64,000 nucleotides of DNA from positions 1 through 64,000 of the forward strand of contig NZ_BBLW01000001.1 in NCBI RefSeq assembly GCF_000971135.1, given 5' to 3'. The notes below the pieces were generated by a model that was given only the letters and a program-made list of their open reading frames with translations, had not been told where the DNA came from and searched no databases. The DNA comes from Demequina phytophila. Lineage in GTDB: Bacteria > Actinomycetota > Actinomycetes > Actinomycetales > Demequinaceae. A program made the translations under genes and the position numbers. Shown one piece after another: positions 3,342 to 62,354 of this stretch; the first letter of the stretch is position 1; each line of letters opens with the position of its first letter.

Positions 3342-5144
3342 TCAGCCGGCCAGCGCCTGCCGGACGCGGGCGATCACGGCGGCCGCCGCATCGTCCACCG
3401 GCAGCGCCTCGCTGGTGCCCGCCGCGCGGACCTTCAGCTCGACGGTGCCCTCGGCGAGGCCGCGCCCCACCACCAGGATGAACGGCGCGCCCAGCAGCTC
3501 GGCGTCCTTGAACTTGACGCCGGGCGAGACCTTGAAGCGGTCGTCGTAGCAGACCTCGATGCCGGCGGCCTCGAGCTCCCCCGCGAGCCTCGCGGACGCC
3601 TCGAACACCGCGTCGTCCTTGCCGGTCGCGACCACGTGCACGTGGTACGGCGCGACCTGGACGGGCCAGGACAGGCCCAGCTCGTCGTGGTTGTTCTCGG
3701 CGAGCAGCGCGACGGCGCGCGTGACGCCGATGCCGTAGGAGCCCATCGTGACCACCTGCTGCTTGCCGTTCTCGTCGAGCACGCGCAGGTCGAGCGCCTC
3801 GGCGTACTTGCGACCCAGCTGGAAGATGTGGCCGATCTCGACGCCGCGCGCGAGCTCGAGCGGGCCCGAGCCGTCGGGGGCGGGGTCGCCGGCGCGCACG
3901 CTCGCGGCCTCGATGGTGCCGTCGGCCGTGAAGTCGCGGCCCATGGTGAGCTCGAAGACGTGCTTGCCGTGGACGTCCGCGCCGGTGATCCAGCGGGTGC
4001 CGGGGACGATGCGCGGGTCGACCAGGTACGGGATCGCGGCGTCCTGCTCGTCGCCGCGGGCGACGCCCTCGGGGCGGGCCTGCGGGCCGAGCGCGCCGGG
4101 GCCGATGTATCCCTTGGTCAGCTGCGGGTGCTTGGCGAAGTCCTCCTCGTTGGCGGCCTCGACGCCGAACGGCGAGAGGGCGGCCTCGAGGCGCGTCATG
4201 TCCGCGTCGCGGTCGCCGGGCACGCCGACGACGAGCAGCGAGCGCTCCCCGGTGGGCGACGTGAGCGCGAGCACCACGTTCTTGAGGGTGTCCGCTGCGG
4301 TCCACTCGCGGTCGGCGCGCGGGTGCGCGGCGTTCGCGGCGGCCACCAGCGTGTCGATGGTCGGGGTGTCGGGGGTGTCCTCGACGTGGGCTGCGGGGGC
4401 CTCGTCCCAGGGCAGGGCGTCGGGCACGGGCGTGGTGACGGCCTCCACGTTGGCCGCGTAGCCGCCGGGCGACCGCACGAACGTGTCCTCCCCCACCTCG
4501 GTGGGCGAGAGGAACTCCTCGGACCGCGAGCCGCCCATGGCGCCGGACTGCGCCTGCACGATCACGTACTCGATCCCGAGCCGTTCGAAGATCCGCACGT
4601 AGGCCGCGCGCTGCGCCGCGTAGGACGCGTCGAGACCCTCGTCGGTGACGTCGAAGCTGTACGAGTCCTTCATGATGAACTCGCGGCCGCGCAGCAGGCC
4701 CGCACGGGGACGCGCCTCGTCGCGGTACTTGGTCTGGATCTGGTAGATGGTGAGCGGCAGGTCCTTGTAGCTGCTGTACAGGTCCTTCACCAGCAGCGTG
4801 AACATCTCCTCGTGCGTGGGCGCGAGCAGGTAGTCGCCGCCCTTGCGGTCCTGGAGGCGGAACAGGTTGGGGCCGTACTCGGTCCACCGGTGGGTGGCCT
4901 CGTAGGGCTCGCGCGGCAGCAGCGCCGGGAAGTGGACCTCCTGGCCGCCGGCGGCGTCCATCTCCTCGCGCACGATCGCCTCGACCTTCGCGAGCACCTT
5001 CAGCCCCAGCGGAAGCCAGGTGTAGATGCCGGGCGCGGCGCGCCGGATGTAGCCGGCACGGACGAGCAGCTTGTGCGACGCGACCTCGGCGTCGGCGGGG
5101 TCCTCGCGCAGGGTGCGCAGGAAGAGAGTGGACATGCGAAGCAT
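3342..5144 (-). CDS. proS: Prolyl-tRNA synthetase
   Basis: Class II aminoacyl-tRNA synthetase charging tRNA-Pro. The product from [20 protein letters not shown] is 600 residues and of the bacterial long type: motif 2 region around [21 protein letters not shown], a central editing (YbaK-like) insertion, and a C-terminal anticodon-binding domain. A GTG at 5165 would add seven residues, but neither start has a ribosome site. A TACCCT box seven bases before ATG 5144 suggests a leaderless transcript. Convergent with the ferritin-like lipoprotein gene. Confidence 0.96.
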
Positions 5145-5172
5145 GGGACCAAGGGTATCGGCCACGGACGGC

Positions 5173-5182
5173 GGACGATGCG
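5173..5182 (+). repeat. GGACGATGCG word, intergenic
   Basis: Exact copy, extended as GGACGATGCGCGGGTCGCC, between the stop of the SLH protein gene (5266) and the proS start. Confidence 0.8.
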
Positions 5183-5265
5183 CGGGTCGCCGGGCGCACG
5201 ACCGGGCGGCCGCACGGGACGCGAGACTCGGCCGGGCATCGCCGGTGCCAGGGGCGCTCGGCGCG

Positions 5266-8200
5266 TCAGCCCCCGTACTCCCCCGCCCACTGCAGCAGGC
5301 ACTGCGCCATGGTCGCGCGCGTGAGCGCGGCGCGCGGCTTGAAGGCGCTGCCCGCGGGTGCCGTGAGGATCCTCCTCGCCCTCGCCCAGGTGATCGCCGT
5401 GTACGCGCCGTGGATCGTGGAGACGTCGCTGTAGGGCGAGCGCGCGGGCGGGGCGAACCCCGGGGAGCCGGCGAGCCGATAGAGGAACGTGAGCGTGTCC
5501 GCCCGCGTCATCACGTCGTCTGCGCGGTACCGGCGGCCGCCGACGACGCCGGCCTGCCGCATCCACACGATCGCGCGGTAGCGCCGGTCCGTGACGCTCA
5601 CGTCCGAGTACGGCGAGGCGGTCGGGAGGACCACGTCCGGGCTGCCTGCGAGGCGGTAGAGGTACTGCGCCATCGCGCCCCGGTTCACGGTGGCGGACGG
5701 TCGGAACGACCCGTCCCCGAACGGAGTGGCGATTCCCGCATCGGCGACCCACGAGATCGCCGACCACGCGGGATCGTGGAACGTCACGTCCGTGAAGAAG
5801 TAGACAGGAACGTAGAACGCCTTGCGCGAGGACGCCTCGAACACCGGGCTCGTCGCGTAGCTGGTCGCTCCACCGACCCACGCGGTGCGTCCCTTGAAGG
5901 CCTGCCACGCCGCGGACGTGGTGACGTAGCCGTCCGTCAGGACCATGCGCACGTCCACGAAGGCGTGGGTGGTCTCGAGGTCGAACGGCGAGCCGTGGGG
6001 GCCGCAGAAGGCGGACTCGACCGTCGAGGCCGACCTCAGCGCCACCGCGCACACCGTCGACCCCCGGAAGCTCTTCGGGACGTTCAGCGTGCCGCGGAAC
6101 GCCGAGCCGTACTTCACCTGCGAGGAGGTGAATGCGCGGTTCGCGTCGGTCACCGCGCGCGAGCCGGTCGCGGTGGGCACCGTGATGACCCGAGGCGTGA
6201 CCGCATCGCTCGGACGTACCCACCCGCCGAGCGCCGCGCCGAGCGCGATGCGGACGCGATAGGCACCGGACGCGACATGCGAGAACGCGTACCTGCCTGT
6301 CGAACCGACCGCTGTCTCAGCGACGAGATCCCCGGCGCGCGTGTAGAGCGAAGCCACGGCACCCTCGAGCTGGTAGCTCCCCGCTCCCGTGACGCGCCCC
6401 GCGATGGTCGACTCAGGTGTGAGGACGATGCGTGGTGCGGCGGTCGCGCCGGCCACCACCACGATCGGCGTCGCCGACGACACACCCGCCTCTCCAGGCG
6501 CCCAGCCATCCCCGAGCCCGTCGAAGCCCGTCGCGAGGATCAGGTACCTGCCCGGCGCCAGATCGTCGAAGGAGTACGCACCGTCGGTCGTCGCGCAGGA
6601 TGCTGCGACGCGCTCGACCCGGGTGGTGTAGATCTCGACGCAGCCGCCTTCCCCTGGACCTCCACCTCCCTCCACGGTGACGCGCAACGCTCCGGCGGCG
6701 CGCATCCGCACGTCGGCGCGAGCCGTGCCGCCCGTGGCAACCGTGATCGGTGTCGCCCGTTCACGGGTCGGCGAGCCGGCGAACCATTCCGACGCCTGCG
6801 CCGTCACGCCGGTCACCAGCATCGTGTAGGTGCCCGCGGGCAGGCTGTCGATCGTGTAGGAGCCGTCGTCGCCCGCGTCGGTCGCCTGCGCGGCACGGCC
6901 ATCGGCGTCGTACGCGATGACCCGCGCGCCAGCCGCGGGATCGCCGGACGACGCGGTGACCCGTCCCCTGATCGTCGCTTCGGGCTTCAGGGTCGCGTCC
7001 AGCTCGAAGGTTCCCCGGGTCGCCTGGATCGTGACCGCCTTCGACCTCAGGCCGGTGGTCTTCCCCCGGCCCGCGTACCACTGGTAGGCGGCGCCAGGTC
7101 CCTCGGAGTAGAACTGGACGCGATAGTGACCAGGGTCGACGCTGAGCTCGTACGACGAGCGTCCAGGTTCCACGCACTGGTGTGCCGCGGTCGTGCCGCC
7201 CTCGACCGCCATGGCGCAGACGGTGAGGTCATCCCTCCCGGCGGGCCTGGTGATCGTCCCGGTGATCGTGGGCCACGGGTCGACCAGGAACACCCCGACG
7301 TTCGCCGAGCCCGCCAGCACGTCCTGCGTCGCCGTCGTGCCATCGAGCACGCCAGGCGCGTCCCGAAGCGTGAGCCAGAGGCCGCGCGGCAGGTCGTGTC
7401 CGAACCGGAACCAGAAGACACCGTCCACGCTGGTGCACGTGGTCGCGAGGACCTCGTCCGACGCCGTCAGGTCGATGCAGCCCTCGGTCACTTGAATCCG
7501 GTCGAGCGTGCTCCGGGTGAACGCGGTGACCGCGATGGTCCCGCCGAACGCGAGGGGGGCGACCACCACGGCGTCGATGACCTGGACGCTCACAGGCGCC
7601 GGCCCGCCGAAGATCACCCCCGGCGAGTCGGGGTCGAAGCACCCGCCCGGCGCCGGCTCGGCCGCCACGCAGAGGCGGTAGGAGCCGGCGGCGAGCCCGG
7701 AGAGGTCGAAGGCGTCTCCGACGCCGCCGCAGTCGCGCGCGAGCTCGATCGGTGCCGTCTGGTCGAGCGCCATCACGCACGCCTCGTCGACGGGTAGCGT
7801 GTCGGGCACCGCGATGGTTCCCGTGATGCCGTACGCAGGCGCGACGACGATGTCGGCGCCGTCGATGACCTCGCCGTTGCCCGGTCCGAGCACGACCGTG
7901 CCGCGGCTGTACAGCGACCGCGCCTCCGGTGCGAGGCCAGGTGACGTGATCCACTGCGCTCCGTAGCCGGCGGCTCCGAGCACCCCGACCTTCGCGGCCG
8001 CCACCGGCGCGACGAACCGGTAGGTTCCGTCGGCTCCCGTCGTGGTCGACGACAGGATTCCGGACGAGTTCGCGCGCACCACGGTCGCGCCCTCGACGGG
8101 CGTCCCCCCGGCGTCGGTCACCGTGCCGGTCAGCGCCTGCGTCGTGGGGACCACCATCGCCAACTCATGGTGATCGCTGCCCGAGAGCACCACCGACGTC

Positions 8201-9836: not shown

Positions 9837-9846
9837 GGACGATGCG
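9837..9846 (+). repeat. GGACGATGCG word, intergenic
   Basis: Exact copy, extended as GGACGATGCGCCGGTCGCC, between the two secreted-protein genes and just beyond the 9868-9905 hairpin. Confidence 0.8.
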
Positions 9847-9914: not shown

Positions 9915-11999
9915 CTATCCGATCCGTCGCGCCTGCGAGTAGACCGAGGACTTGAGGTAGCCGTCCTTCGAGGCGATGATCCGCACCTTGACCACGTGGC
10001 CGCTGTCGGCCTCGCGCAGCACGTAGGTCCTGGACTTCGCGCCGACGATGGGCCTGCCGTCACGCACCCACTGGTAGGCGATCTTGTCCGGCTTGGGCGA
10101 CCACGCGGGCGTCGCCGTCCAGATCGTCCTGCCCACCACCATCGTGCCCTTCAGCGCCGGGCGGTCGGGGGTGGCCCAGACCTTCGGCACGTAGAGCGTG
10201 GCCGACTTGACGGTGCGGTCCGTGTAGGTGGCGCGCGACGCGGTCACCTCGACCCGCAGCTTCTTGCCGCGGTCCTGGGGCGTCACCGTGTACGTCCTGC
10301 CCGTCTCGCCCGCGATCGGCACGCCGTTCCGCAGCCACTGGTAGGCGAAGGACTCGGGCTCCGGCGCCCAGGCGCCCGTGACGGCGCGGAGCGTCTTGCC
10401 CGCCTGCGCCGAGCCCTTGATGACGGGTCGGGGCGCCGTGGTGAACGCCTGCACGCAGCCGTCGGTGGGACGAGGAGCGCCGAGCACCACGTTGTCCATC
10501 CGCAGGCCCGCGTACGAGTTGTTGATCAGCCACCCGTACCGGTTGCCCCCCACGAGCGTCGGGACGAGGTCCCCCGCGTTGCCGCCGAGCGTCCACGTCT
10601 TCAGCACGGTGCCCGAGTCGGACAGGACCGACAGGTCCGCATAGAGCAGCCCGCCCTGCGCGTACACCTTGTGCCGCAACGTGTACCAGCCGGACTCGTC
10701 GAGGTAGAGCGGGTTGGCGCCGTAGTTGCTGCGGTACGGCGACGACTGCGCTGCGGTCGTCCCCGTCCCGATTGTCCACGTCCCGGAACCGTCCGCACCC
10801 GCGTAGAACATGAAGCTCCGCTGCAGCGCCCCGTCGGTGCCGTTGACGCCATGCGCCCACGTGAACTGGCCGGGGGCCGCGTCCGCGTCGAGGTAGAAGT
10901 CGGCCGACGCGGTGTAGCCGCCCGACGGGAACTCCGTCGCGTAGCCGCCGTACGCCATGGTCACCGTGCCGGTGGTGTTGTGCGTGCCGTAGTTGGTGAC
11001 GGGCGCCTCGGCGTACCAGCAGCCCGCGGAGGCGAGCGTCCCGTCGTTCACCCTGGTCACCAGCCCGAGCCCCGCCGACGTGCCCTGCTCGAAGCCGCCG
11101 ACGAAGGTCGCGGGAAGCACGCGGGCGGTCTGCGGCGTCGCGGTGACGGTGATGAGCGGCGTCCGGTAGTAGTTGTTGTCCTGCTGCCAGCCGCTCGCGG
11201 CCTTGAGGACCCCGAGCTCGGGCTCCTCATCCGGCGACGGGAAGTTCATGTCGTCGCTCGAGTCGAAGTACATGATGCCCTGATCGACGTTGGTGCCCGT
11301 GGTGGGCGCCGCGTCAGCGAGCGACACGTCGAGGCTGTCGTACGGACCGCCGATCGCGAGGCCCGAGCCGAACCGGCTGGTGGGGAACTTCACGGTCGCG
11401 ATCACCTGGTCGGGCAGCACCACGCCCTGGTTGTGGAGGTCGAAGGTGACCGTCTGCACGTAGTTCGCGACGCATCGTCCCCTGGCCGCGTCGTACCACC
11501 ACGCGGACTCGATGAACACCTCGGTGTCGGGGTTGTCCACGCAGGTACCCGGCTGCGCGCTCGGGCGGTAACGGACGTTGACCTGGCGGGTGAGCGTGGC
11601 AAGCTTCGCGCCCACCGAGCCGCCCGCCGCGACCGCGTAGATGTTGACCGTGATCGGGTGGCTGAACGTCGCCCCGGAGGTGGTGGTGCAGTTCTCGTTG
11701 TTCCAGGTGCCGCTCTGGCACGCGAAGCTCTGGAGCGTCACCTGGACGGTGTCGAGCGTGCGGGCCTCGCCCGCGAGAGCGATGCGGTCGCCCATCTCCG
11801 CGATCGACCTGGTCTGCAGGTTGAGGTGTCCGCCCGGATCCGTGTACTGGTCGTCCGCGAACTCGTAGACGGTGTCCACGCGCGGGTCGTCCGTGGCGGC
11901 CCCTGCCGGCGCCGCGATCAGGCTGGTCGCGAGCATCACGGCCCCCGCCAGCGTCCCGATGGCGGCGCGAGAGCGCAGCCGGTTCCCCCTCTGATGCAT
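9915..11999 (-). CDS. Secreted protein of unknown function with two C-terminal Ig-like repeats
   Basis: A 694-residue exported protein with a signal peptide (MHQRGNRLRSRAAIGTL... to APAGA) and start ATG 11999 chosen for its GGGGGA site; an in-frame ATG at 12017 lacks one. The first 550 residues match no family I recognise; they are rich in Thr, Gly, Tyr and aromatic beta-strand patterns and contain conserved-looking Cys pairs. The last 170 residues are two copies of an Ig-like repeat (YQWLRNGVPIAGETGRTYTV and YQWVRDGRPIVGAKSRTYVL) common at the ends of actinobacterial extracellular proteins. Next to the SLH protein; a joint envelope role is only inferred from adjacency. Confidence 0.8.
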   Translation of the reverse strand: MHQRGNRLRSRAAIGTLAGAVMLATSLIAAPAGAATDDPRVDTVYEFADDQYTDPGGHLNLQTRSIAEMGDRIALAGEARTLDTVQVTLQSFACQSGTWNNENCTTTSGATFSHPITVNIYAVAAGGSVGAKLATLTRQVNVRYRPSAQPGTCVDNPDTEVFIESAWWYDAARGRCVANYVQTVTFDLHNQGVVLPDQVIATVKFPTSRFGSGLAIGGPYDSLDVSLADAAPTTGTNVDQGIMYFDSSDDMNFPSPDEEPELGVLKAASGWQQDNNYYRTPLITVTATPQTARVLPATFVGGFEQGTSAGLGLVTRVNDGTLASAGCWYAEAPVTNYGTHNTTGTVTMAYGGYATEFPSGGYTASADFYLDADAAPGQFTWAHGVNGTDGALQRSFMFYAGADGSGTWTIGTGTTAAQSSPYRSNYGANPLYLDESGWYTLRHKVYAQGGLLYADLSVLSDSGTVLKTWTLGGNAGDLVPTLVGGNRYGWLINNSYAGLRMDNVVLGAPRPTDGCVQAFTTAPRPVIKGSAQAGKTLRAVTGAWAPEPESFAYQWLRNGVPIAGETGRTYTVTPQDRGKKLRVEVTASRATYTDRTVKSATLYVPKVWATPDRPALKGTMVVGRTIWTATPAWSPKPDKIAYQWVRDGRPIVGAKSRTYVLREADSGHVVKVRIIASKDGYLKSSVYSQARRIG

Positions 12000-12146: not shown

Positions 12147-12156
12147 GGACGATGCG
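12147..12156 (+). repeat. GGACGATGCG word, intergenic
   Basis: Exact copy, extended as GGACGATGCGGCGGTCGCC, 23 bases past the stop of the GNAT gene. Confidence 0.8.
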
Positions 12157-15604: not shown

Positions 15605-16759
15605 CTACCTTCTCACTTCCGCGATCGCGCCCCGCGCCCGGCCACGCGCCCACGTCTCCGCCCGGTCGACCTGCTCGAGGCTGACCTCGGCGGGGGCGCT
15701 GTACTCCGCGACAACGCGCCGGACGGTGTCGACGATCCCGAGGAACGGCAGCTCGCCGTCGACGAACGCCTGCACGCACTCCTCGTTGGCGGCGTTGAAC
15801 ACCGCCGGGTGCAGCGGCGAGGCCGCGACCGCGTCGCGCATGAGGCGGATCGCGGGGAACGCCTCCTCGTCGAGCGGCTCGAACGTCCACGACTGCGCGT
15901 GGGTCCAGTCGAGCCGCGGGGCGACGTCCGCGAGCCGGTCGGGCCAGCTCAGGCCGAGCGCGATCGGCAGCCGCATGTCCGGCGGGGAGGCCTGGGCGAT
16001 GGTGGCGCCGTCGACGAACTCCACCATCGAGTGCACGATCGACTGCGGGTGCACCACCACGTCGATGCGGTCCATCGCGATGCCGAACAGCAGGTGCGCC
16101 TCGGCCACCTCGAGCGCCTTGTTGACCATCGACGCGGAGTTGATGGTGACCACGGGGCCCATCTCCCAGTTCGGGTGCGCGAGCGCGTCCGCGGGCGTGA
16201 CGCGGGCGAGCGACGCGCGCGAGCGTCCGCGGAACGCGCCGCCCGAGGCGGTGACCACCAGGCGGCGCACCTCGCCGTGAGCGCCGGAACGCAGCGACTG
16301 GGCGAGTGCGGAGTGCTCGGAGTCGACGGGCACGATCTGGTCGTCACGCCGCTTCGCCGCGAGCACCAGGGCGCCGCCGGCGACCAACGACTCCTTGTTG
16401 GCGAGCGCGAGGGTCGAGCCGGACTCGAGGGCCGCGAGGGTGGGCCGCAGGCCCACCGAGCCCGTCATCCCGTTGAGCACCACGTCGGCGCCGATGCGTG
16501 CGGCCTCGACCACAGCATCGTCCCCTCCCCTGACCTCGATGCCCGGGAGGGCGTCGGCGATCTCGGCGGCGACGGACTCGCGTGCGACGGCCACGTAGCG
16601 CGGACGATGCGCGCGCGCCTGGGCGACGATCGCACCCGGGTCGGATCCTCCGGCGGCGAGCGCGACCACCTCGAGGCGGTCGGGGTGCCGCGCGACGACG
16701 TCGAGCGCCTGGGTGCCGATCGAACCGGTCGACCCCAGCAGGGAGACGGTGCGGGTCAT
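15605..16759 (-). CDS. dxr: 1-deoxy-D-xylulose 5-phosphate reductoisomerase
   Basis: Second step of the MEP pathway, NADPH-dependent. The 384-residue product opens with the Rossmann motif LLGSTGSIGTQALDVV and contains ANKESLVAGG, PVDSEHSALAQ and NPNWEMG-like (HPNWEMGPVVTINSASMVNK) segments that bind substrate and divalent metal. Its ATG overlaps the stop of the upstream DivIVA-repeat gene (ATGA), and rseP follows after five bases. Confidence 0.96.
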   Translation of the reverse strand: MTRTVSLLGSTGSIGTQALDVVARHPDRLEVVALAAGGSDPGAIVAQARAHRPRYVAVARESVAAEIADALPGIEVRGGDDAVVEAARIGADVVLNGMTGSVGLRPTLAALESGSTLALANKESLVAGGALVLAAKRRDDQIVPVDSEHSALAQSLRSGAHGEVRRLVVTASGGAFRGRSRASLARVTPADALAHPNWEMGPVVTINSASMVNKALEVAEAHLLFGIAMDRIDVVVHPQSIVHSMVEFVDGATIAQASPPDMRLPIALGLSWPDRLADVAPRLDWTHAQSWTFEPLDEEAFPAIRLMRDAVAASPLHPAVFNAANEECVQAFVDGELPFLGIVDTVRRVVAEYSAPAEVSLEQVDRAETWARGRARGAIAEVRR

Positions 16760-18428: not shown

Positions 18429-19585
18429 GAGGTCCCCAGGAGCAGAGCGAAGACGATGTAGGCGACCGCGGCCGCCGGGAGCATGGAGTCGAGGCGGTCG
18501 AGCACGCCGCCGTGACCCGGGATGGCGCTGGACATGTCCTTGACGGACAGGTCGCGCTTGAGGACGGACTCGGCGAGGTCGCCGAGCACCGCCGCGACGA
18601 CCGCGGCGGCACCCACCGCGGCGCCGACCCACCACCGGCCGTCGAGCAGCACGAGCGCGAAGATCGCCGCACCCGCGATGCCGAACACGGCGCCGCCGAT
18701 CGCGCCCTCCCACGTCTTCTTGGGGCTCACGCGCGGGGCGAGCGGGCGCCGTCCGAAGAGCATGCCGGTGAACAGGGCGAACGTGTCGTTGAGGACCACG
18801 GCGGCGATGACGATGAGGATCCGCTTCCAGCCGTCGTCCGCCATCTCCATGAGGAGCATGAAGGACGCGAGGAACGGGATCCAGGTGAGGGTGAGGATGC
18901 CGACGAGCGAGTCGGACAGGGTGTTCTCGACGCGGTCGTCGACGATGCGCCAGGCCGTGACGCCCGCGCTGGCGACGAGCAGCGCGACCACGAGGCCCTC
19001 CCGGCCGCCGAACCAGGTCGCGACGCCCATGCCCACGGTCGCCATGAGGACCGGGGTGAGCGAGACGTGCATGCCGTGGCGCGCCAGGGCGTTGCGCCAC
19101 TCGACCACCGCGGCGGCGCAGAAGCCGTAGATCGCGACGGCGAACGCGAGCGGATGCCACCACGCGGCGACCAGCGCGCCCACGGCGAGGACGACGCCCA
19201 CGGCGCTCGCGAGGCCCAGGTTGCGGCCTGCGCGCGAGGTGGGTGCCGGGACCACGTCCCCCAGGGGGACGCTGACGTCCACCGGGTCCACCGCATCGTC
19301 CTCCCCCGCGGTGTGGGGCACGGCGATCGACTCGGCCTCCGCGACCGCCCGTGCCACCTGCTCGGCGGCGTGAGGCTCCGGTGCCGTCGCGGGCCCGTGC
19401 TCGACCGCGGCGTCGGCGGGGCCGGGCAGCTCCTCCTCGCCCTCGGGCAGGCCGGGAGGCCAGGCCGAGGGCGCGTCCGGTCGGGCGGCGTCGCCGGGGT
19501 GCACGGGCGCGAAGACGCCGCGCCCCTGCGTGTCGGGGCGCTCCGAGGTGCCGGGGTCCGCCTGCTGGCGGCGCCCCCACCTCAT
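18425..19585 (-). CDS. cdsA: Phosphatidate cytidylyltransferase
   Basis: Makes CDP-diacylglycerol, precursor of all membrane phospholipids. The C-terminal 260 residues have about eight membrane segments and the complete family signature, from [11 protein letters not shown] through [12 protein letters not shown] near the C-terminus. The first 120 residues are an acidic, Pro/Glu/Ala-rich extension predicted to be disordered and cytosolic, longer than in most family members. Located downstream of frr and overlapping rlmN. Confidence 0.94.
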
Positions 19586-25449: not shown

Positions 25450-26598
25450 TCAGGCGTTCGCGGCACCCTCGCTCCTGGCCCACAGGCCCCTCGACGCCCG
25501 CGCGAGCCCACGTCCCGCGAGGCTCGCGAGGGCCTGCTTCGCCTCCTTGTCCGTCAGGCCGGCGGCGATCGCGATGGCGGAGACCGGGGCTCCGCGGGTG
25601 GGGATCGCGCCGTACGCCTGGCGCTCCGCGCGCGACGCGAACTCCGGACCGTCGGGCTCCGGGATCTGCTCCTCGGGCGCCTCCCCGACCGGCGTCACCA
25701 GCTCGAGGGCGTCCGCGGCGGACACCACGATCTCCGCCTCGTGATCCCGGATCAGCCGCAGGCACCCCGCCGAGGATGCGGACGTCACCGGCCCGGGCAC
25801 CGCACCCACCGTCCTCGCGAGCGCCCCCGCGTGCCGCGCGGTGCTCAGCGCGCCCGACCGATGCGCCGCCTCCACCACGATGGTCGCTCCCGCGGTCGCG
25901 ATGAGGCGGTTGCGGCTGAGGAACCTCTGGCGGTGCGGGGCGAAGCCGGGCGGCTGCTCGCTCACCACGGCCCCGGTCGCGATCACCCTCGCGAGGAGCG
26001 CCGCGTTGCCGGCGGGATAGAGGTGGTCGACGCCTCCGGCCAGCACCGCGACGGTGATCCCACCGGCCGCGAGCGCCCCGCGGTGCGCGGCGACGTCGAT
26101 CCCATACGCTCCACCGCTGACGACGGTGACGCCGCGGTCCGCGGCGACCGCCGCGATCTCGGTGGCGACGTGCTCGCCGTACGCGGTCGCGGCCCGCGCC
26201 CCCACGACGGCGACCGACCGCCGCCACACGAGGTCGAGGTCCGCCTCTCCCCTGACCCACAGGGCGTGGGGTGCCTCCGCGCCGAGGTCGTCGACGGCGG
26301 CGGGCCATCCCGGATCCCCGGCGGTGAGCACGCGGGCGCCCGCACGGGTGGCGAGCTCGACGAGCCGCTCGGGGGTCGCCGCCGCGAGACGCGGCGTCCA
26401 GCGGCCCAGGGCGGCGATCGCACGGTCGACGTCGCCCGGATGCGCCGCCAGCGCGACCGTCGCACCCACCGGGTCGCGCGCCGCCTCCCGTATCCACGCG
26501 AGGGCACCGGCGTGGCCGAGCAGCGCGACGAGCCAGCGCGCCTGGGCGTCGTCAGGCTCGGCGATCGCGCTCCACACCAGCGCGGCCCCCGCGGTCAT
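25450..26598 (-). CDS. dprA: DNA-processing protein DprA
   Basis: Loads RecA on incoming single-stranded DNA in natural transformation; also present in many bacteria not known to be competent. 382 residues, with the Rossmann core motifs VVGARAATAYGE, VSGGAYGIDVAAHRGAL and FLSRNRLIAT and a C-terminal winged-helix (DprA_WH-like) domain around IAAGLTDKEAKQALASL. ATG 26598 overlaps the comM stop. Found with comM and yraN in the standard order. Confidence 0.94.
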   Translation of the reverse strand: MTAGAALVWSAIAEPDDAQARWLVALLGHAGALAWIREAARDPVGATVALAAHPGDVDRAIAALGRWTPRLAAATPERLVELATRAGARVLTAGDPGWPAAVDDLGAEAPHALWVRGEADLDLVWRRSVAVVGARAATAYGEHVATEIAAVAADRGVTVVSGGAYGIDVAAHRGALAAGGITVAVLAGGVDHLYPAGNAALLARVIATGAVVSEQPPGFAPHRQRFLSRNRLIATAGATIVVEAAHRSGALSTARHAGALARTVGAVPGPVTSASSAGCLRLIRDHEAEIVVSAADALELVTPVGEAPEEQIPEPDGPEFASRAERQAYGAIPTRGAPVSAIAIAAGLTDKEAKQALASLAGRGLARASRGLWARSEGAANA

Positions 26599-28103
26599 GC
26601 GGCGAGCCCCTGTCGCAGCGCGAGCGCCTCGGCGACGTGCCCACCGCGCGGCGAGGTCGCCCCCTCGAGATCGGCGAGCGTCCAGGCGAGGCGGAGCGCA
26701 CGGTCGAAGCCGCGCGCGGAGAGCACTCCCCTGTCCACCGCGGTCCACAGCCCGGCGCACGCGGCGCGAGACGTCACCGCACGCAGCCACGCGCCCGAGG
26801 CCTGCCCGGACACGGACCACCCGTGGGGCGCGAGGCGCTCCCGGGCGACGGCACGCGCCTGCGCGACGCGTGCGGCGACGAGCGCGCTCGCCTCGCCCGG
26901 GCGGTCCGACCGTGCGGCCGCGCCCACGTGGACCTGGATGTCGATGCGGTCGAGCAGCGGTCCCGAGAGCCTGCCGAGGTAGCGGCGGCGCGCGATCGAC
27001 GTGCATGAGCACGCCTCCCCCGTGCCGGCGAACCGGCCGCAGGGGCACGGGTTGGCGGCGAGCACCAGCTGGAAGCGCGCCGGGTAGCGCGCGGCGCCGT
27101 GCGCGCGATGGAGGACGATCTCCCCGCGCTCGAGCGGCTGCCGGAGCGTGTCGAGCACCCGGGTGGGGAACTCCGGGGCCTCGTCGAGGAAGAGCACGCC
27201 GGCGTGGGCGCGCGACACCGCACCCGGCCGGGCGACGCCGGAGCCCCCGCCCACGATGGCGGCGGCGGAGGCCGTGTGGTGGGGCGCCTCGAAGGGCGGC
27301 TTCCGCACGAGCCCCTCGGAGGCGTCGAAGGTGCCCGCAAGGGAGTGGACGGCCGCCACCCGCACCGCCTCGTCGTCGTCGAGGTCGGGCAGGATGCCGG
27401 GCAGGCGCTCGGCGAGCATGGTCTTGCCCGCCCCGGGCGGCCCGACCATGAGCAGGTGGTGACCGCCGGCGGCGGCGACCTCGAGCGCGACGCGCGCCGC
27501 AGCCTGTCCCCGCACGTCCGCGAGGTCCGGCGGTTCGCCCTGCGTCACCCGCGCGACGGGCGCCCGCACCGCCTGGAGCGAGGCGGGGTGCGCGTCGGCG
27601 CCGAGCCGCTGGAGCACCGTGGCGAGCGCGACGGCTCCGTCGATGCGCGCCCGGCTCACGAGCCGCGCCTCGGCCGCGTTCCCCGCCGGCACCACCAGGT
27701 CGGGGCTCCCGGCCTCGACGGCGGCGGCGACCGCGGGCAGCACGCCGCGCACCGGCCGTACGCGTCCGTCGAGTCCCAGCTCGCCGAGGAACACCGTGTC
27801 GCGCACGCGCGCGGGCTCCACGGTCCGCGCGGCGGCGAGCACGGCGATGGCGATCGCGAGGTCGGTGGCGGGGCCGGACTTGGGCAGCGAGGCGGGCGAC
27901 AGGTTCACCGTGATCCGCCACCGCGGCCATGCCACGCCAGACGAGGAGACCGCGGCGCGCACGCGGTCCTTCGCCTCGGCGAGCGACGCGTCGGGCAGCC
28001 CCACGATGGTGAACGCGGGCAGCCCCTGCGCCACGTGCGCCTCGACGTCGATGAGGTGCCCGGCAAGCCCCGTGAGGACCACCGACCGGCAGCGCCCGAT
28101 CAT
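26595..28103 (-). CDS. comM: YifB/ComM family Mg-chelatase-like AAA ATPase
   Basis: A 502-residue AAA+ helicase-like protein. In naturally transformable Gram-negative bacteria ComM promotes branch migration during DNA uptake recombination. It has the ComM N-terminal Lon-like region (TIVGLPDASLAEAKDRVRAA), Walker A GPPGAGKTMLAER, Walker B LFLDEAPEF and the hallmark NPCPCGRF followed by a Cys-rich segment. Overlaps both yraN and dprA by four bases. Confidence 0.94.
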   Translation of the reverse strand: MIGRCRSVVLTGLAGHLIDVEAHVAQGLPAFTIVGLPDASLAEAKDRVRAAVSSSGVAWPRWRITVNLSPASLPKSGPATDLAIAIAVLAAARTVEPARVRDTVFLGELGLDGRVRPVRGVLPAVAAAVEAGSPDLVVPAGNAAEARLVSRARIDGAVALATVLQRLGADAHPASLQAVRAPVARVTQGEPPDLADVRGQAAARVALEVAAAGGHHLLMVGPPGAGKTMLAERLPGILPDLDDDEAVRVAAVHSLAGTFDASEGLVRKPPFEAPHHTASAAAIVGGGSGVARPGAVSRAHAGVLFLDEAPEFPTRVLDTLRQPLERGEIVLHRAHGAARYPARFQLVLAANPCPCGRFAGTGEACSCTSIARRRYLGRLSGPLLDRIDIQVHVGAAARSDRPGEASALVAARVAQARAVARERLAPHGWSVSGQASGAWLRAVTSRAACAGLWTAVDRGVLSARGFDRALRLAWTLADLEGATSPRGGHVAEALALRQGLAA

Positions 28104-28480: not shown

Positions 28481-28490
28481 GGACGATGCG
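28481..28490 (+). repeat. GGACGATGCG word, intergenic
   Basis: Exact copy 24 bases upstream of yraN, followed by CGCGTCGGCC. A one-mismatch inverted copy (GGCATCGTCC) is at 28553-28562. Confidence 0.75.
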
Positions 28491-31065: not shown

Positions 31066-31103
31066 GGGACGATGCGGGGGTCGCCCGGCCGGCGCATCGT
31101 CCC
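31066..31103. repeat. Inverted pair of the GGACGATGCG word (hairpin)
   Basis: GGGACGATGCG (31066-31076) and CGCATCGTCCC (31093-31103) are perfect inverted copies separated by 16 bases, downstream of the DUF2469 gene. The pair can fold into an 11-base-pair stem and may help end the lepB-rnhB-DUF2469 transcript, though it is about 135 bases past the stop. Confidence 0.75.
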
Positions 31104-33482: not shown

Positions 33483-33492
33483 GGACGATGCG
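33483..33492 (+). repeat. GGACGATGCG word, intergenic
   Basis: Exact copy, extended as GGACGATGCGAGGGTCGGG, 40 bases past the trmD stop and just upstream of the likely rplS -10 region (AGAATA near 33463-33468). Confidence 0.8.
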
Positions 33493-35734: not shown

Positions 35735-35744
35735 CGCATCGTCC
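35735..35744 (-). repeat. GGACGATGCG word (reverse), intergenic
   Basis: Exact copy reading CGCATCGTCC on the plus strand, five bases after the stop of the plus-strand membrane gene. Confidence 0.8.
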
Positions 35745-36648: not shown

Positions 36649-36658
36649 GGACGATGCG
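36649..36658 (+). repeat. GGACGATGCG word, intergenic
   Basis: Exact copy 22 bases past the apbE stop and close to the presumed rpsP promoter. Confidence 0.78.
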
Positions 36659-37456: not shown

Positions 37457-38097
37457 AGGCCGGCCTCCTCGAAGGCGCCGCGCAGCGACTCGGTGAACGC
37501 CGGCGACGTGAACGACGCGCCGCTGACGGCCTCGACGTCCCACGTCTGCGCGGCGAGCACCTTGTCGCGCAGCTCGGGGATGGCGCGCGCATTGATCTGC
37601 ACGGACTGCGCGTCCTGCGTGCCCGCGACGATCGCCTGGACGTCCGTCACCTCGCCGCCGACCACCGTGATGCGGGCCTGGTAGTCGCCGCGCGCGTTGG
37701 TCACCACCGGGCCGTCGTGGGTGGACGATGCGGGCGCCGGGTCCGCGGCCGCCGTCGCCGTGGGCGCCGGGTCCGGCGCGGCGGCGGTGTCGGACGCCAC
37801 CGGTGCGGGGGTCACGGTCGCGCAGTCGTCGTCCTCCGCGAAGTCCTTGTCGTCGTCCTCGTCGTCGCCGCTGTCGTCGGGCTCGCACGTGATCGACGGC
37901 GTGGGAGCGGGCGCGGGAGCGGGCGCGACGGTCGCCGAGGCCGTGGGGCTCGCGGAGGCGCTCGCGGTGGGAGACGCGTCGGGGCTCGCGGGCGCGACCA
38001 GGTCGAGCGTGGGCAGCTCCTTGGGTGCGACCGCCCAGCCCGCGCCAAGGATCGCGGCGCAGCCGCCGGCGACCACCACGGCCCGGGAGGTGCGCAT
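37453..38097 (-). CDS. Exported FMN-binding domain protein (carrier 1)
   Basis: A 214-residue exported protein: N-terminal membrane anchor or signal (VVVAGGCAAILGAGWAV), a long Pro/Ala/Ser/Asp linker (about 40-120), and a C-terminal FMN-binding domain with AVSGASFTS, where the last Thr is the expected covalent flavin site. It is closely similar to the next gene (NARAIPELRDKVL and TSPAFTESL are shared), so the two arose by duplication. Role: one-electron carrier outside the membrane. Confidence 0.88.
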   Translation of the reverse strand: MRTSRAVVVAGGCAAILGAGWAVAPKELPTLDLVAPASPDASPTASASASPTASATVAPAPAPAPTPSITCEPDDSGDDEDDDKDFAEDDDCATVTPAPVASDTAAAPDPAPTATAAADPAPASSTHDGPVVTNARGDYQARITVVGGEVTDVQAIVAGTQDAQSVQINARAIPELRDKVLAAQTWDVEAVSGASFTSPAFTESLRGAFEEAGL

Positions 38098-39960: not shown

Positions 39961-41370
39961 CTACCAGGCGAACTCCTCCGCGTGGCGGCGGTGCTCCGGC
40001 ACCCCGGCGACCACCGCATCGTCCATCACGGCCGTCACCCAGCGGTCGGGGCCGCACGCGTAGACGTCCGCTCCCGCGATCGCGGGGACCAGCCGGGAGA
40101 GCGTCGCGGGGGACGATGCGGGGGCCCAGCCGTCCCCGCGGCGCCCGGTGAGCACGTGGAGGGTCGCGCCGCGCGCCGCCGCGAGCTCGCGGAACTCCTC
40201 GAGGTGCGGGATCTCCGCCTCGCTCCGGGCACGCACGATGACGGTGCAGCCCCCGGGCCGGAACGTGGCGTCCTCGAGCAGCGCGAGGATCGGGGTGATG
40301 CCGACGCCGGCGCCGGCGAGCACCAGGTGGTCTCCCGAGCGCGAGTCGTCGGTGAAGACTCCCAGCGGGCCCTCCACCATGACGCGGGTGCCCGGGCGCA
40401 GGGTGCGCAGGGCGGCGGAGCCGTCGCCGAGCGGCTTCACGGTGATGCGCATCCACCCGTCGCGGACCGTGCGCGACAGCGAGTACGGGTGCGCCTGTCC
40501 CCACATGTCGTGCTGGAGGAACCGGAACAGCATGAACTGCCCGCCCTTGGCCCCCAGCCGGGTGAGGCGGCGGCCGTGCATCGCGATGACGGTCGACCCG
40601 TCGGGGAGCGTGCCCACCGCGGCGACGCGGATGCTGTGGCGCCAGAAGCGTGCGAGCGGACGCACCACGCGGTACGCGAGCAGGCCGCCCACGGCGACGG
40701 TCCACAGGATCACCCAGTACCACCAGGCCGGGCCCATGGTCATGAAGCTCTGGCCGTCCGTGAGCTGATGAGGGATCGAGAGGCCCACGGCGAGGTAGCT
40801 GAACAGGTGGACCGCGTGCCAGTTCTCGTAGCGCCAGCGGCTGCGCACGATCGCGTAGGACGTCACCACGACGGCGACGAGCACCAGGAAGCCCACGCTC
40901 GCCATGAACATGGGGCCGCCGTAGCTCACCACGAACGCCCACGTCTGCGCGAGCAGCCCGGTCTGCGTGGGCAGCGCGTAGCCGGCGACCAGCAGCACGA
41001 TGTGCGCGATGATCACCACGAAGCCGAGCCGTCCCAGCCGGGCGTGCAGGCGGGCGCCGCGGTCGTGGCCGATCGCCTGCTCGACGAGCGGGATCCGGGC
41101 GATGAGGATGAGCTGCGCCATGATCATGGTCGAGGCGACGATCCCCGCGATCCTGCCGAGCGTGGTCAGCAGGCCGGCGAGCGTGGTGACGTCCACGGTG
41201 CCGGAGGACAGCATGAAGGCGAGGCCGCCGACGCCCGCGAGCCACGCGGCCGCCTCGATCGTGTCGCGGCGGCGGCTGCGGCGCGCGGCGCGCGCGCGGC
41301 GCTCGGCGGTCGCGGGATCGAGGGCCGCGCGGCTCGGGGCCACGTCGCGGCGGGGCTGCACGGCGGTCAT
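39961..41370 (-). CDS. Ferric-reductase-like membrane flavoprotein 2
   Basis: A 469-residue homologue of reductase 1 with the same order: about six membrane segments with histidines (HARLGRLGFVVIIAHIV, ENWHAVHLFSYL...PHQL), FAD motif HPYSLSRTV, nicotinamide motifs GVGITPILALL and VYACGPDRW. It has a basic N-terminal extension of 35 residues. ATG 41370 overlaps the stop of carrier 3, pairing this reductase with that carrier as reductase 1 is paired with carriers 1 and 2. Confidence 0.9.
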   Translation of the reverse strand: MTAVQPRRDVAPSRAALDPATAERRARAARRSRRRDTIEAAAWLAGVGGLAFMLSSGTVDVTTLAGLLTTLGRIAGIVASTMIMAQLILIARIPLVEQAIGHDRGARLHARLGRLGFVVIIAHIVLLVAGYALPTQTGLLAQTWAFVVSYGGPMFMASVGFLVLVAVVVTSYAIVRSRWRYENWHAVHLFSYLAVGLSIPHQLTDGQSFMTMGPAWWYWVILWTVAVGGLLAYRVVRPLARFWRHSIRVAAVGTLPDGSTVIAMHGRRLTRLGAKGGQFMLFRFLQHDMWGQAHPYSLSRTVRDGWMRITVKPLGDGSAALRTLRPGTRVMVEGPLGVFTDDSRSGDHLVLAGAGVGITPILALLEDATFRPGGCTVIVRARSEAEIPHLEEFRELAAARGATLHVLTGRRGDGWAPASSPATLSRLVPAIAGADVYACGPDRWVTAVMDDAVVAGVPEHRRHAEEFAW

Positions 41371-53615: not shown

Positions 53616-53625
53616 CGCATCGTCC
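53616..53625 (-). repeat. GGACGATGCG word (reverse), intergenic
   Basis: CGCATCGTCC on the plus strand, 20 bases past the ndk stop and upstream of smc. Confidence 0.8.
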
Positions 53626-55114: not shown

Positions 55115-55533
55115 GCGGTCTCGCCGCCGGCGGCGGCCTCGCCCGTGGCGGCCGCCGCCTCCGCAGCGGCGTCCCGCTCCGCCCGCTCGCGGTCGATGCG
55201 CGTGCCGAGCCGCACGCCCACGATCCACGTGAGCAGGAAGCACGCACCGATGATCGCGATGGTGGGCTCGATGAACCCGGCGACCAGCATGGGCACCTGG
55301 AGCGCCCAGCCCAGCCAGCGGCCCCACGGCTTGGCCTGCTGCCCGGCCGCGTAGCCGAACAGGACCACGAGCCCGAGCCCGCCTCCCCACAGCAGCCACC
55401 CGGACAGCGACACCTCGCCGGCCCGGTCCAGACCCCACAGCACCAGCACCGCGAAGATCCCGGCGAGCGCCTGGAGCGCGAGCACGGCCTGGCAGAAGAT
55501 CAGCGCGGCGGAGCGCTGCGGACGCGCGCTCAT
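55111..55533 (-). CDS. DUF4233 membrane protein
   Basis: A 140-residue membrane protein of the actinobacterial DUF4233 family, usually encoded after folC. Four hydrophobic segments, ending with a charged RIDRERAERDAAAE tail. ATG 55533 overlaps the folC stop. Function unknown. Confidence 0.85.
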   Translation of the reverse strand: MSARPQRSAALIFCQAVLALQALAGIFAVLVLWGLDRAGEVSLSGWLLWGGGLGLVVLFGYAAGQQAKPWGRWLGWALQVPMLVAGFIEPTIAIIGACFLLTWIVGVRLGTRIDRERAERDAAAEAAAATGEAAAGGETA

Positions 55534-56945: not shown

Positions 56946-56972
56946 GCGTCAAGTCTGTCACGACGGCGGCGA

Positions 56973-57005
56973 GGGACGATGCGGCGGCGACCGCCGCATC
57001 GTCCC
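56973..57005. terminator. Perfect inverted pair of the GGACGATGCG word after folC copy 2
   Basis: GGGACGATGCGGCGG (56973-56987), loop CGA, and CCGCCGCATCGTCCC (56991-57005): a perfect 15-base-pair stem that starts ten bases past the stop at 57016. It looks like a terminator built from two copies of the repeated word. Confidence 0.8.
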
Positions 57006-57015
57006 ACCGGACCGG

Positions 57016-58845: not shown

Positions 58846-59508
58846 GTGACCGAGTCGATGGAGCCTGCGCGCGTCCAGCCGGTCGCCGGTTGGTACGTCG
58901 ACCCGTTGGATGCGGGGGTGATGCGCTACTGGGACGGGTCGGGCTGGACCGCGCACGCGCGGCCGGTCGAGCCGGAGCCCGAGCCTGCGCCCGTCCAGCG
59001 TCACCGCGTCGGCATGGCGGCGGTGCTCGGCATCATCGCGTCCACGCTGCTGCTGGGCATCGCGCTCGTCACCATCGCGGCCATCGCGCAGCGGGAACGC
59101 ATGGCCGAGCCGACCGCGCCCGACCCGGGCGCGGTGGCCTCGCCGTCCACGCAGGCCGCCACCGACGACGCCGACGACGCGAAGGCGCTGATGCGTCGGG
59201 CGCGCGTGGACCTCGACGAGCTGGGCGTCACCATCGTCGCGGCCCTCCTCGAGGACCCCGAGGCTCAGGTCCAGGTCGCGGAGATCGCGGGCGACTACCT
59301 GGTGCTCACGGACGGCACCCCCTACGCGACCATCGACGCGTCGAACGGCGTGGAGCTCGGCGGATTCGTCCCGGGCGGGGCCGACGCGTTCTGCGTCTGG
59401 GTGGAGATGCCCGCCACGGACCGCGCCGCGCATTGGTCGCCGCTGGACGCGACCCTGGCCTCCGGCACGCTCAAGCGGGCGGGCGACTGCGCCGCGGTCA
59501 CCGGCTGA
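58846..59508 (+). CDS. DUF2510-domain single-pass membrane protein
   Basis: A 220-residue protein: N-terminal DUF2510 motif GWYVDPLDAGVMRYWDGSGW, an acidic Pro/Glu linker, one membrane segment (MAAVLGIIASTLLLGIALVT), then an extracytoplasmic domain with two cysteines (FCVWVEMP and GDCAAVTG). Function unknown; DUF2510 occurs in many actinobacterial membrane proteins. GTG 58846 has GAGGGGG. The 3' end overlaps cysM by 11 bases in convergent orientation. Confidence 0.83.
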   Translation: MTESMEPARVQPVAGWYVDPLDAGVMRYWDGSGWTAHARPVEPEPEPAPVQRHRVGMAAVLGIIASTLLLGIALVTIAAIAQRERMAEPTAPDPGAVASPSTQAATDDADDAKALMRRARVDLDELGVTIVAALLEDPEAQVQVAEIAGDYLVLTDGTPYATIDASNGVELGGFVPGGADAFCVWVEMPATDRAAHWSPLDATLASGTLKRAGDCAAVTG

Positions 59509-60439: not shown

Positions 60440-60507
60440 GACCCCATGATGCCCATCTCCCCCGGCTCCGGCCCAGTTCCCGCGCTACGGTGACGGAGGA
60501 GGTGCTC

Positions 60508-61398
60508 ATGCCCGCTCTCGTCCTGTGCGGCGGACCGGCCGCCGGCCAGCCCGGTTCCGCGGCCCGCCTGCTCGACCCCGCCACGCCCATCGTCCTGGCC
60601 ACGGACGGGGGCCTCCAGCGCGGCGACGGCGTCTTCGAGACCGTGGGCGTGCACCACGGTCGCATGCACGACCTCGAGCCGCACCTCGAGCGCCTCGCGC
60701 AGTCCGCGGCCATGCTCGACCTGCCCGCGCCCGACCTGGGCGAGCTGCGAGACGCGATCGCGCTGGCCGTGCGGACCATGCTCGCCGGCGAGCCGTCGAC
60801 GCCGCCCACCGCGCTCGCGAAGGTGATCTACACGCGGGGACCCGAGCACGGCGCGGGCGCGGGCCGTCCCACCGGCTTCGTCTACGCGGACGTCTTCCCG
60901 GACGTGACGCGCCAGCGCACCGAGGGCGTGAGCGTGATGACGCTGTCGCGCGGGTACGCGCGCGGCGTCGGCGAGTCCGCGCCGTGGCTGCTGGCGGGCG
61001 CGAAGACGCTGTCCTACGCCGTGAACATGGCCGCCGAGCGCCACGCCAAGGCGCGCGGCTACGAGGATGCGATCCTCACCTCCACCGACGGCTACGTGCT
61101 GGAGGCGCCGCGCGCGAGCGTGCTGGTCCGGGTGGACGATGCGGTGGTCACCCCCGCCGCCGAGGGCGGGCTGCTCCACGGCACGGCGCAGCGCGCGGCG
61201 TTCGCGTCGCTCGAGGCGCGCGGGTTCGCCTGCGAGTACCGGGACGTCACCGTGGCGGAGCTCGACGCGGCGGAGCAGGTGTGGCTCACCGACTCCGTGC
61301 AGCTGCTGCGGCCGGTGCGCGAGATCGACGGGCGCATGCTCGTGGTGGACCGCGCGCTCACCGACGGGGTGAACGAGGACCTCCTCGCGGCCCCTTAG
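60508..61398 (+). CDS. Class IV aminotransferase, PabC-like (aminodeoxychorismate lyase)
   Basis: A 296-residue fold-type IV PLP enzyme with GDGVFETVGVHHGRMHDLEP, the PLP lysine in LAGAKTLSYAVN, and EAPRASVLV. Motif content fits 4-amino-4-deoxychorismate lyase, which makes p-aminobenzoate for folate, and two folC genes are near, but branched-chain or D-amino-acid aminotransferases share this core. ATG 60508 has a strong GGAGGAGG; an upstream GTG at 60490 does not. Confidence 0.78.
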   Translation: MPALVLCGGPAAGQPGSAARLLDPATPIVLATDGGLQRGDGVFETVGVHHGRMHDLEPHLERLAQSAAMLDLPAPDLGELRDAIALAVRTMLAGEPSTPPTALAKVIYTRGPEHGAGAGRPTGFVYADVFPDVTRQRTEGVSVMTLSRGYARGVGESAPWLLAGAKTLSYAVNMAAERHAKARGYEDAILTSTDGYVLEAPRASVLVRVDDAVVTPAAEGGLLHGTAQRAAFASLEARGFACEYRDVTVAELDAAEQVWLTDSVQLLRPVREIDGRMLVVDRALTDGVNEDLLAAP

Positions 61399-61409
61399 CG
61401 CTCCCGAGC

Positions 61410-61510
61410 GCCTCTCCACACACATCTGGCGCTGATCCACCAGGACCCCGCGATGTGAACGCACACCTGCACGCCGCGGCGCGGTTTCAGAGTGCCTCGT
61501 GTGGATCAGC
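61410..61510. repeat. 101-bp intergenic repeat, copy 2
   Basis: Aligns without gaps to 3222-3284 over its first 63 bases (about 46 identities, longest shared word CGATGTGA) and ends in the same GTGGATCAGC. An internal inverted pair GCTGATCCAC (61431-61440) and GTGGATCAGC (61501-61510) remains. Lies between convergent genes, like copy 1. Confidence 0.65.
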
Positions 61511-61529
61511 ACCCGCCAGCCGACAACGG

Positions 61530-62354
61530 TCAGGCGCCGGTCGCGACCTCGCGGCCCTGGTGCGCCCACTCCGACCACGAGCCCGGGTACAGCGCGGCCC
61601 GCACGCCCGCGATCTCGAGCGCGGCGATCTGATGCGCCGCGGTCACGCCGGAGCCGCAGTACACGGCCACCTCGGTGGCGGGATCCACACCCAGCCCGGC
61701 GAAGCGCTCCTCGAGTTCGGCGCCGGACAGGAACAGGCCCGAGGCCGCCACGTTCTCGCTGGTAGGTGCGTTGATCGCGCCGGGAATGTGCCCCGCGACG
61801 GGGTCCATCGGCTCGACCTCGCCGCGGAACCTCTCCCCCGCCCGCGCGTCGAGAAGGAGGCCGCGCGCGGGCCAGGCCGCGGCATCGTCCGCCTCGATCG
61901 CCGGCATCCCGTCCCAGCCGAGCGTCACCCTGCCCGGCGCGGGCGCCACCTCGCCGGTCTCGACCGGCAGGGCCGCGAGCACCCACGCCGCGAACCCGCC
62001 GTCGAGGATCCGCACGTCCACTCCGGCATGCCGCAGCAGCCACCACGCGCGCGCGGCGCCGAAGCCGTGGCCCGCGTCGTAGACCACCACGGCGTCGCCG
62101 TCCTCGAGGCCCCACCGGCGCGCGGCCGCCTCGAGCGCGTCTCGCGGCGGCAGCGGGTGGCGGCCGCGCCTCGGGTCGCCGATGTCCGCGAGCTCGGTGT
62201 CGAGGTCCACGTACACGGCGCCAGGGAGGTGCCCGGCGGCGTGGTCGGCGAGGCCGTTCGGCTGCGCGAGCGACCAGCGCACGTCGAGCAGTCGAGGTGG
62301 GGCGGACGATGCGAGGGCCGCGTCCAGCTCGGATGCGGAGATCAGCACGGTCAT
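61530..62354 (-). CDS. sseA: Two-domain rhodanese-type sulfurtransferase (SseA-like)
   Basis: A 274-residue thiosulfate/3-mercaptopyruvate sulfurtransferase with two rhodanese domains. The N-terminal domain (LLDVRWSL, VVVYDAGHGFGAARAWWLL) is non-catalytic; the C-terminal domain has the active cysteine in YCGSGVTAAHQI, the loop shape of the mercaptopyruvate-type enzymes. GAGGAGG precedes the ATG. Confidence 0.9.
   Translation of the reverse strand: MTVLISASELDAALASSAPPRLLDVRWSLAQPNGLADHAAGHLPGAVYVDLDTELADIGDPRRGRHPLPPRDALEAAARRWGLEDGDAVVVYDAGHGFGAARAWWLLRHAGVDVRILDGGFAAWVLAALPVETGEVAPAPGRVTLGWDGMPAIEADDAAAWPARGLLLDARAGERFRGEVEPMDPVAGHIPGAINAPTSENVAASGLFLSGAELEERFAGLGVDPATEVAVYCGSGVTAAHQIAALEIAGVRAALYPGSWSEWAHQGREVATGA

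Follow-up and report, generated by a model that had tools for sequence, protein, structure and literature searches.

A ten-base word with species dialects in Demequina as a putative self-DNA uptake sequence

The first 64,000 nucleotides of contig NZ_BBLW01000001.1 of Demequina phytophila (assembly GCF_000971135.1; this whole stretch is called the window below) contain 23 exact copies of the ten-base word GGACGATGCG, and the question raised by this locus is what maintains so short a sequence at such a density. Dinucleotide shuffles of the window give a mean of 0.93 copies and a maximum of 3, and none of 100 shuffles reaches 23. A reading made from the letters of the window alone (the sequence-only reading) had already placed the word far above chance and likened it to the DNA uptake sequences of Neisseria, with a chromosome-organising site, a termination signal or a dispersed repeat as other options. 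The likeness to uptake sequences gives the best fit to the tests run here and the other options fit less well; the word is probably the core of a roughly 20-bp label, about RGGGACGATGCGSNGGYCG, that would serve self-recognition in natural transformation. The comparison covers 44 Demequina genomes, with three other members of the family and 102 members of the order as outgroups.

Abundance, shape and placement of the word

The D. phytophila genome (2,984,965 bases in 12 contigs, 72.2% G+C in a 380 kb sample) carries 1,101 copies of GGACGATGCG, about one per 2.7 kb, which are divided 548/553 between the strands, as opposed to 7 copies (2 and 5) of the reversed word. The nine-base core, which comprises the first nine bases of GGACGATGCG, occurs 1,538 times genome-wide and its reversal 21 times. 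Markov expectations were calculated on genome samples, which for this genome amount to 449 kb including the window. The comparison with a third-order model that the sequence-only reading had proposed as a check yields 175 exact copies against 5.0 expected, a 35-fold excess. Within the same sample single changes at core positions 4-9 yield about the expected number of copies or fewer, with 6 against 4.3 as the greatest surplus, and position 10 is tolerant of C (44 versus 3.8) and T (16 versus 2.9). Information outside the core is located at -1 and 0 (R, G) and at +13 to +19 (GG, Y, C, G, then S at +19), which together define the motif of roughly 20 bp. Flanks further out hold no more than 0.20 bits at any position, which implies that no larger unit has been copied. 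The lowest-GC fifth of windows holds 2.00 nine-base sites per 5 kb compared with 2.75-3.10 elsewhere, a weak hint that recently acquired DNA may be poor in the word.

In the window, the longer form of the word that had been noted earlier, GGACGATGCNNNGGYC, is present 20 times against 0.05 expected, 14 times with the exact ten-base word. All 22 coordinates listed by the sequence-only reading are right, while the copy at 11471 had been overlooked. Copies with exactly one mismatch had been put at about ten and actually number 34 (57 matches with up to one mismatch minus the 23 exact ones); the shuffles average 21.7 when exact and one-mismatch matches are counted together.

The position of the word relative to genes was determined with a simple home-made gene caller, which failed at lower GC, and intergenic figures are given only for genomes where it worked. 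Twelve of the 23 window copies are intergenic, as had been claimed, in the 7.6% of the DNA that is non-coding (p about 2e-8). The same preference extends beyond the window, where 59 of 152 copies fall into the intergenic 7.9% of 380 kb, the outcome of a second check proposed earlier. Across 444 kb of the genome, window included, the 175 copies comprise 71 intergenic copies, 102 coding copies and 2 at gene edges in DNA that is 92.1% coding, an intergenic excess with p about 6e-33. Convergent gaps contain 3.5 copies per kb, tandem gaps 2.2 and divergent gaps 1.5, the latter holding 19 of the 175. The reported concentration after stop codons stands in so far as 44 of the 71 intergenic copies are closer to a stop than to a start, but the difference between intergenic and coding DNA is the larger effect. 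Of 50 copies within 150 bp of a stop codon, 34 read CGCATCGTCC on the coding strand, which was indeed described as the usual reading. Neighbouring copies are less than 60 bp apart in 12 cases and inverted in 11 of these, and the inverted pairs can form stable hairpins, none of which is followed by a T-run within 12 bases.

Copies inside genes read Asp-Asp-Ala in 50 of 102 cases and Ala-Ser-Ser in 32, and they do so via codons that are rare in this genome, as had been recognised, GAT being used for 8.2% of Asp and GCA for 3.5% of Ala residues (544 kb). No strong strand bias is apparent in 13 sampled stretches, for which the replication direction of the contigs was not determined; one stretch of 160 kb, for example, has 28/33, and the largest skews are 27/18 (in 104 kb), 7/3 and 7/3.

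Conservation and dialects across the genus

Comparison with the close sister species G025 shows that 37 of 40 aligned copies are intact, while only 45.5% of random 10-mers are, and that the word is 98.0% identical in an alignment whose flanks are 88.3% identical. The DNA uptake sequences (DUS) of Neisseria behave in a similar fashion, with 97% identity as opposed to about 85% for average conserved sequence (PMC2397512). In the comparison with D. maris 12 of 20 copies are intact (random 10-mers 33.5%), and each copy there is either complete or substantially altered. In more distant species the sites are kept no better than by chance (see below), and together with the retention in G025 this indicates that individual copies persist over short times, whereas over longer ones the word occurs at other sites.

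GGACGATGCG is abundant in 15 of the 44 Demequina genomes, with 711 to 1,564 copies each, whereas the outgroup genomes contain 1 to 80. A second word, GGCCGATGC, exceeds 600 copies in 17 further genomes of the genus and reaches 2,018. Under a fifth-order model GGCCGATGC (as GGCCGATGCG) is found 96 times in samples of G014 and G034 against 15.6 expected, and two other species pairs with this word give 89 versus 20.1 and 70 versus 11.9; its single-base variants in the three pairs are mostly near expectation, and a pool of 13 chosen loci from other genera contains 2 copies versus 6.1 expected. The reversed word serves poorly as a control for GGCCGATGC, since G073, which belongs to another family, shows 227 copies versus 22; by this unreliable measure G021 and G018 hold 584 and 409 copies versus 54 and 46 reversed. 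The sampled DNA of G021 contains no word, and that of G018 has GCCGATGCC 23 times versus 3.8 expected in 80 kb. A third dialect, GCCCGACGCTG, is found in G009 (21 versus 0.6 expected in an 80 kb sample, 10 of the 21 being intergenic), where CCCGACGCTG occurs 663 times genome-wide and 17 times reversed; the corresponding counts in G012 are 209 and 33. G026 prefers the variant GGACGATGCC (25 versus 0.9 in 100 kb), and a candidate in G003, GGCCGACGC, is weak. G at +14 is prominent in each of the 11 samples from GGACGATGC and GGCCGATGC species, while R at -1, G at +13 and G at +17 are found in many of them, least clearly in D. maris; the flanks otherwise vary. Two further candidates were dropped: 10 of 15 matches to CCGACCCCG in G027 lie in a single 230-bp tract (L181:2439-2670), and 6 of 10 matches to ACCGACACT in G001 share a longer unit that forms a local repeat (L135:8567-9480).

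The dialects largely follow the species tree. On a tree of the Ffh protein from 41 of the 44 genomes, in which the lack of a word is counted as one label, the labels require 5 changes compared with a mean of 19.7 after shuffling. The GGCCGATGC species form one group and the GGACGATGC species form two, one of 14 rows that includes G026, the other consisting of G004 and G038. These last two (1,113 and 1,403 copies of GGACGATGCG) make up a second, separate GGACGATGCG-rich clade that stands beside species in which no word was found, which suggests convergence or a transfer of specificity.

Proposed uptake of self-DNA and its alternatives

A DNA uptake sequence is the favoured reading because of the density of the word, its lack of strand bias, its intergenic preference and inverted pairs, its short-term conservation and long-term turnover, dialects that largely follow the tree, and the presence of pilus and competence genes. 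The best explanation of the Demequina words would be a dialect-bearing uptake-sequence system comparable to those of Neisseriaceae and Pasteurellaceae, though one that employs unrelated words in a single-membrane phylum. With somewhat less assurance we lean towards a system that evolved independently in this genus of Actinomycetota, that has at least three dialects of which one apparently arose twice (in the main clade and in G004 with G038), and that relies on recognition by a type IV pilus where there is no outer membrane. To our knowledge uptake words are known from two Gram-negative families, in which selection of DNA is linked to its crossing of the outer membrane, and Demequina would be the first such case in single-membrane (Gram-positive-type) bacteria. 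No earlier report of an uptake word in Actinomycetota was found among the papers listed from the open-licence literature, a scope that excludes preprints and most subscription journals.

The HIP1 element of cyanobacteria is likewise a massively over-represented short word but is palindromic, which GGACGATGCG is not. The uptake signal sequences (USS) of Pasteurellaceae have a short core with a weaker downstream flank and many copies inside genes, all of which is also true of the Demequina word. Core and flank differ, however, and USS belong to an unrelated Gram-negative lineage (PMC12616744). Known uptake sequences are characterised by an over-represented 10-mer, inverted pairs, high conservation, and dialects that follow phylogeny and have a common core (PMC3630211, PMC2397512). 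Demequina resembles the Neisseriaceae, where ComP is the DUS receptor, in having a ten-base word in hundreds to thousands of copies in permissive places and in inverted pairs, words that are conserved against diverging flanks, phylogeny-following dialects with a shared core, and a type IV pilus. It differs in the word, which is GGACGATGCG and not GCCGTCTGAA, in its phylum and single membrane, and in that the function is putative; GCCGTCTGAA has no copy in the window, in 449 kb of the D. phytophila genome or in the samples of G014, G009 and G026. The density of one copy per 2.7 kb compares with up to 5,918 copies in 2.4 Mb in Kingella oralis (PMC3630211). Micrococcus luteus, which belongs to the same phylum (Actinobacteria), has comEA and comEC like Demequina and is transformed with the help of Tad/Flp pili, unlike the PilM-type IV pilus of Demequina; the available part of that paper mentions no uptake word for M. 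luteus (PMC6370729).

Two competence genes, dprA and comM, had been named in the window and are borne out by matches to PF02481 and PF01078. DprA handles incoming single-stranded DNA and ComM is a helicase of transformation; among the matches listed, the best for the window ComM are 79 to 84% identical and come from five Demequina species. The genome further encodes ComEA and ComEC and a type IV pilus. Matches in Pfam back pilB and pilT (as T2SSE), pilM, a pilin and an orphan pilin, while pilC, pilN, pilO and the prepilin peptidase are named from the look of their sequences and from gene order, PilN having no Pfam match. ComEC is found in 43 of the 44 Demequina genomes, and so is PilM. The comEC gene appears to be split into two frames in G026 (C1:423579-424363), G009 (C1:2039413-2040200) and G041 (C1:296957-297743). 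Other genes of G026 also look cut short and a sequencing error is therefore likely in that genome; the idea that G026 has lost competence and is now losing its words was dropped, as this genome possesses a variant word and such errors may account for its broken frames.

In the proposed mechanism a pilus-borne receptor would bind labelled double-stranded DNA from kin, the pilus would retract, and ComEA and ComEC would pass one strand into the cell, where DprA, RecA and ComM could help it to recombine. If labelled fragments enter preferentially, recombination would spread new or repaired copies by molecular drive, and some thousand of them could accumulate at permissive sites. A shift in receptor specificity would then be followed by a genome-wide shift of the word, giving rise to dialects which may limit exchange between species.

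A candidate receptor is the orphan pilin encoded beside metE, which adjoins it in 28 of 30 loci examined (in G013 via a 33-residue match only). Its identity to the D. phytophila protein is 76% in G030, 46% in G006 and 45% in G023 (loci L198, L215 and L216), three genomes that are close to each other by Ffh and whose MetE proteins are each about 97% identical to that of D. phytophila; this suggests replacement or diversifying selection of orphan pilin alleles. In its fast-changing sequence the orphan pilin resembles the minor pilin ComP (PMC6370729). Separately, the window gene at 58846-59508 weakly resembles the C-terminal portion of the orphan pilin along part of its length (residues 46-115, 39%, E 1.4e-4); it lacks a pilin start, and similar partial matches recur in other members of the genus.

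Several observations weigh against an uptake system. The identity of the word in D. maris is just 84.5%, next to 83.0% for the flanks, despite the 12 intact copies, and retention is no better than chance in G026 (3 of 26 intact, random 10-mers 16.3%), G034 (1 of 12, 12.6%) and G004 (1 of 9, 15.1%); the first two use another dialect, while G004 has 1,113 copies of the same word. GGCCGATGC shows no intergenic enrichment in G014 and G034 (6 of 90 copies in 6.9% of DNA) and merely a two-fold one in G015 and G024 (14 of 89 in 7.6%), and the support for the GGCCGATGC group on the Ffh tree is weak (77/78). Outside the genus the counts per genome stay at or below 80 for GGACGATGCG and 478 for GGCCGATGC. 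PilM is also present in 36 of the 102 same-order genomes outside the family, and G021, G001 and G027 have pilus and ComEC genes yet contain no word in the 60-100 kb sampled. GGACGATGCG-rich rows are not grouped on the orphan pilin tree (7 changes, shuffled mean 9.6, 34 of 500 shuffles as low), and in the GGACGATGCG-rich G011 and G020 the best orphan-pilin match lies within the pil cluster, with just partial weak matches elsewhere. Its alleles do not appear to track dialect, and the orphan pilin as the sole receptor is unsupported. All uptake words that we know of come from bacteria with an outer membrane, and the papers listed from the open-licence literature include no uptake or transformation experiment on Demequina.

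The main rival is that the copies are binding sites, about 1,500 in number, of an abundant chromosome-organising or nucleoid protein whose recognition drifts between species. Such a protein would account for the strong retention of copies between close sisters and for the asymmetric, extended motif, but we regard it as unlikely in view of the turnover of positions in a distant species with the same word (G004) and of the copies that are kept in genes at the cost of rare codons. The lack of strong strand bias points the same way, although many such proteins need none. A dialect switch at a thousand sites would also seem to need a spreading mechanism, so that the change of word between sister clades and the turnover under an unchanged word favour such a mechanism over a chromosome protein.

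A Chi-like or other hotspot of recombination or repair, read by an intracellular helicase-nuclease, could spread via biased gene conversion and would be in keeping with a short non-palindromic word at this spacing. Chi-type sites are oriented with replication, however, and the strand polarity typical of KOPS or Chi was rejected on the 13 stretches; intergenic preference and inverted pairs would also be unexpected, which makes the hotspot very improbable. About as improbable is a dispersed mobile repeat of the REP or MITE type or an artefact of composition or codon usage. The genome does contain a word of the latter kind, TTGGCCTT, which is over-represented as well and looks like a codon artefact, with 16 of 18 copies inside called genes; GGACGATGCG and the G009 dialect, by contrast, exceed Markov expectations by a wide margin and show an intergenic excess, and a codon artefact was rejected for GGACGATGCG. 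A mobile repeat was discarded because the flanks are nearly unrelated beyond about 20 bp. Least credible of all is a transcription terminator or RNA-processing element after genes: stable hairpins, proximity to stop codons and a shared orientation there would suit it, but as the main role it is rejected since most copies lie inside genes, 19 occupy divergent gaps, close inverted pairs number just 11 among 175 copies and the hairpins lack T-runs. Neisseria DUS pairs double as terminators (PMC2397512), and termination can thus be a secondary role here.

If the word is an uptake sequence, bacteria have repeatedly evolved DNA words for recognising their own kind, and such recognition can take place at the pilus itself. 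Demequina comprises many species with several dialects, one of them apparently of repeated origin, as well as some members in which no word was found despite the same set of genes, and the spread of words, the change of dialects and the isolation of species by dialect thereby become directly testable questions.

Features of the window and the genome

Table 1. Copies of GGACGATGCG in the window and genes for competence and pili; coordinates refer to the window unless preceded by a contig of the D. phytophila genome (C6, C10, C11)
Feature	Coordinates	Strand	Context or support
Word copy	3387..3396	-	inside gene 3342-5135, extended form
Word copy	4004..4013	+	inside gene 3342-5135, extended form
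Word copy	5173..5182	+	intergenic, extended form
Word copy	6423..6432	+	inside gene 5266-9705
Word copy	9837..9846	+	intergenic, extended form
Word copy, overlooked earlier	11471..11480	-	inside gene 9915-11936
Word copy	12147..12156	+	intergenic, extended form
Word copy	16602..16611	+	inside gene 15605-16759
Word copy	19292..19301	-	inside gene 18425-19585
dprA	25450..26598	-	PF02481, E 8.8e-62
comM	26595..28103	-	PF01078, E 2e-88
Word copy	28481..28490	+	intergenic
Inverted word pair, hairpin-forming	31067..31102	+ at 31067, - at 31093	intergenic, 26 bp apart, both extended
Word copy	33483..33492	+	intergenic, extended form
Word copy	35735..35744	-	intergenic
Word copy	36649..36658	+	intergenic
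Word copy	37723..37732	+	inside gene 37453-38097
Word copy	40015..40024	-	inside gene 39961-41370, extended form
Word copy	40111..40120	+	inside gene 39961-41370, extended form
Word copy	53616..53625	-	intergenic, extended form
Inverted word pair, hairpin-forming	56974..57004	+ at 56974, - at 56995	intergenic, copy at 56995 extended
Word copy	61134..61143	+	inside gene 60490-61398, extended form
Word copy	62304..62313	+	inside gene 61530-62354, extended form
Type IV pilus cluster	C6:76932-88640		
Orphan pilin beside metE	C10:267993-268406		
comEA-comEC	C11:164882-167963		

The second inverted pair is situated between two adjacent and similar genes at 55530-58479, which both contain the motif TGTNGKTS and which we take to be folC-like. 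The stretch at 36680-41936 encodes two ferric-reductase-like proteins, two proteins with an FMN-binding domain and one ApbE protein, a cluster that is likely to be involved in electron transfer or flavinylation.

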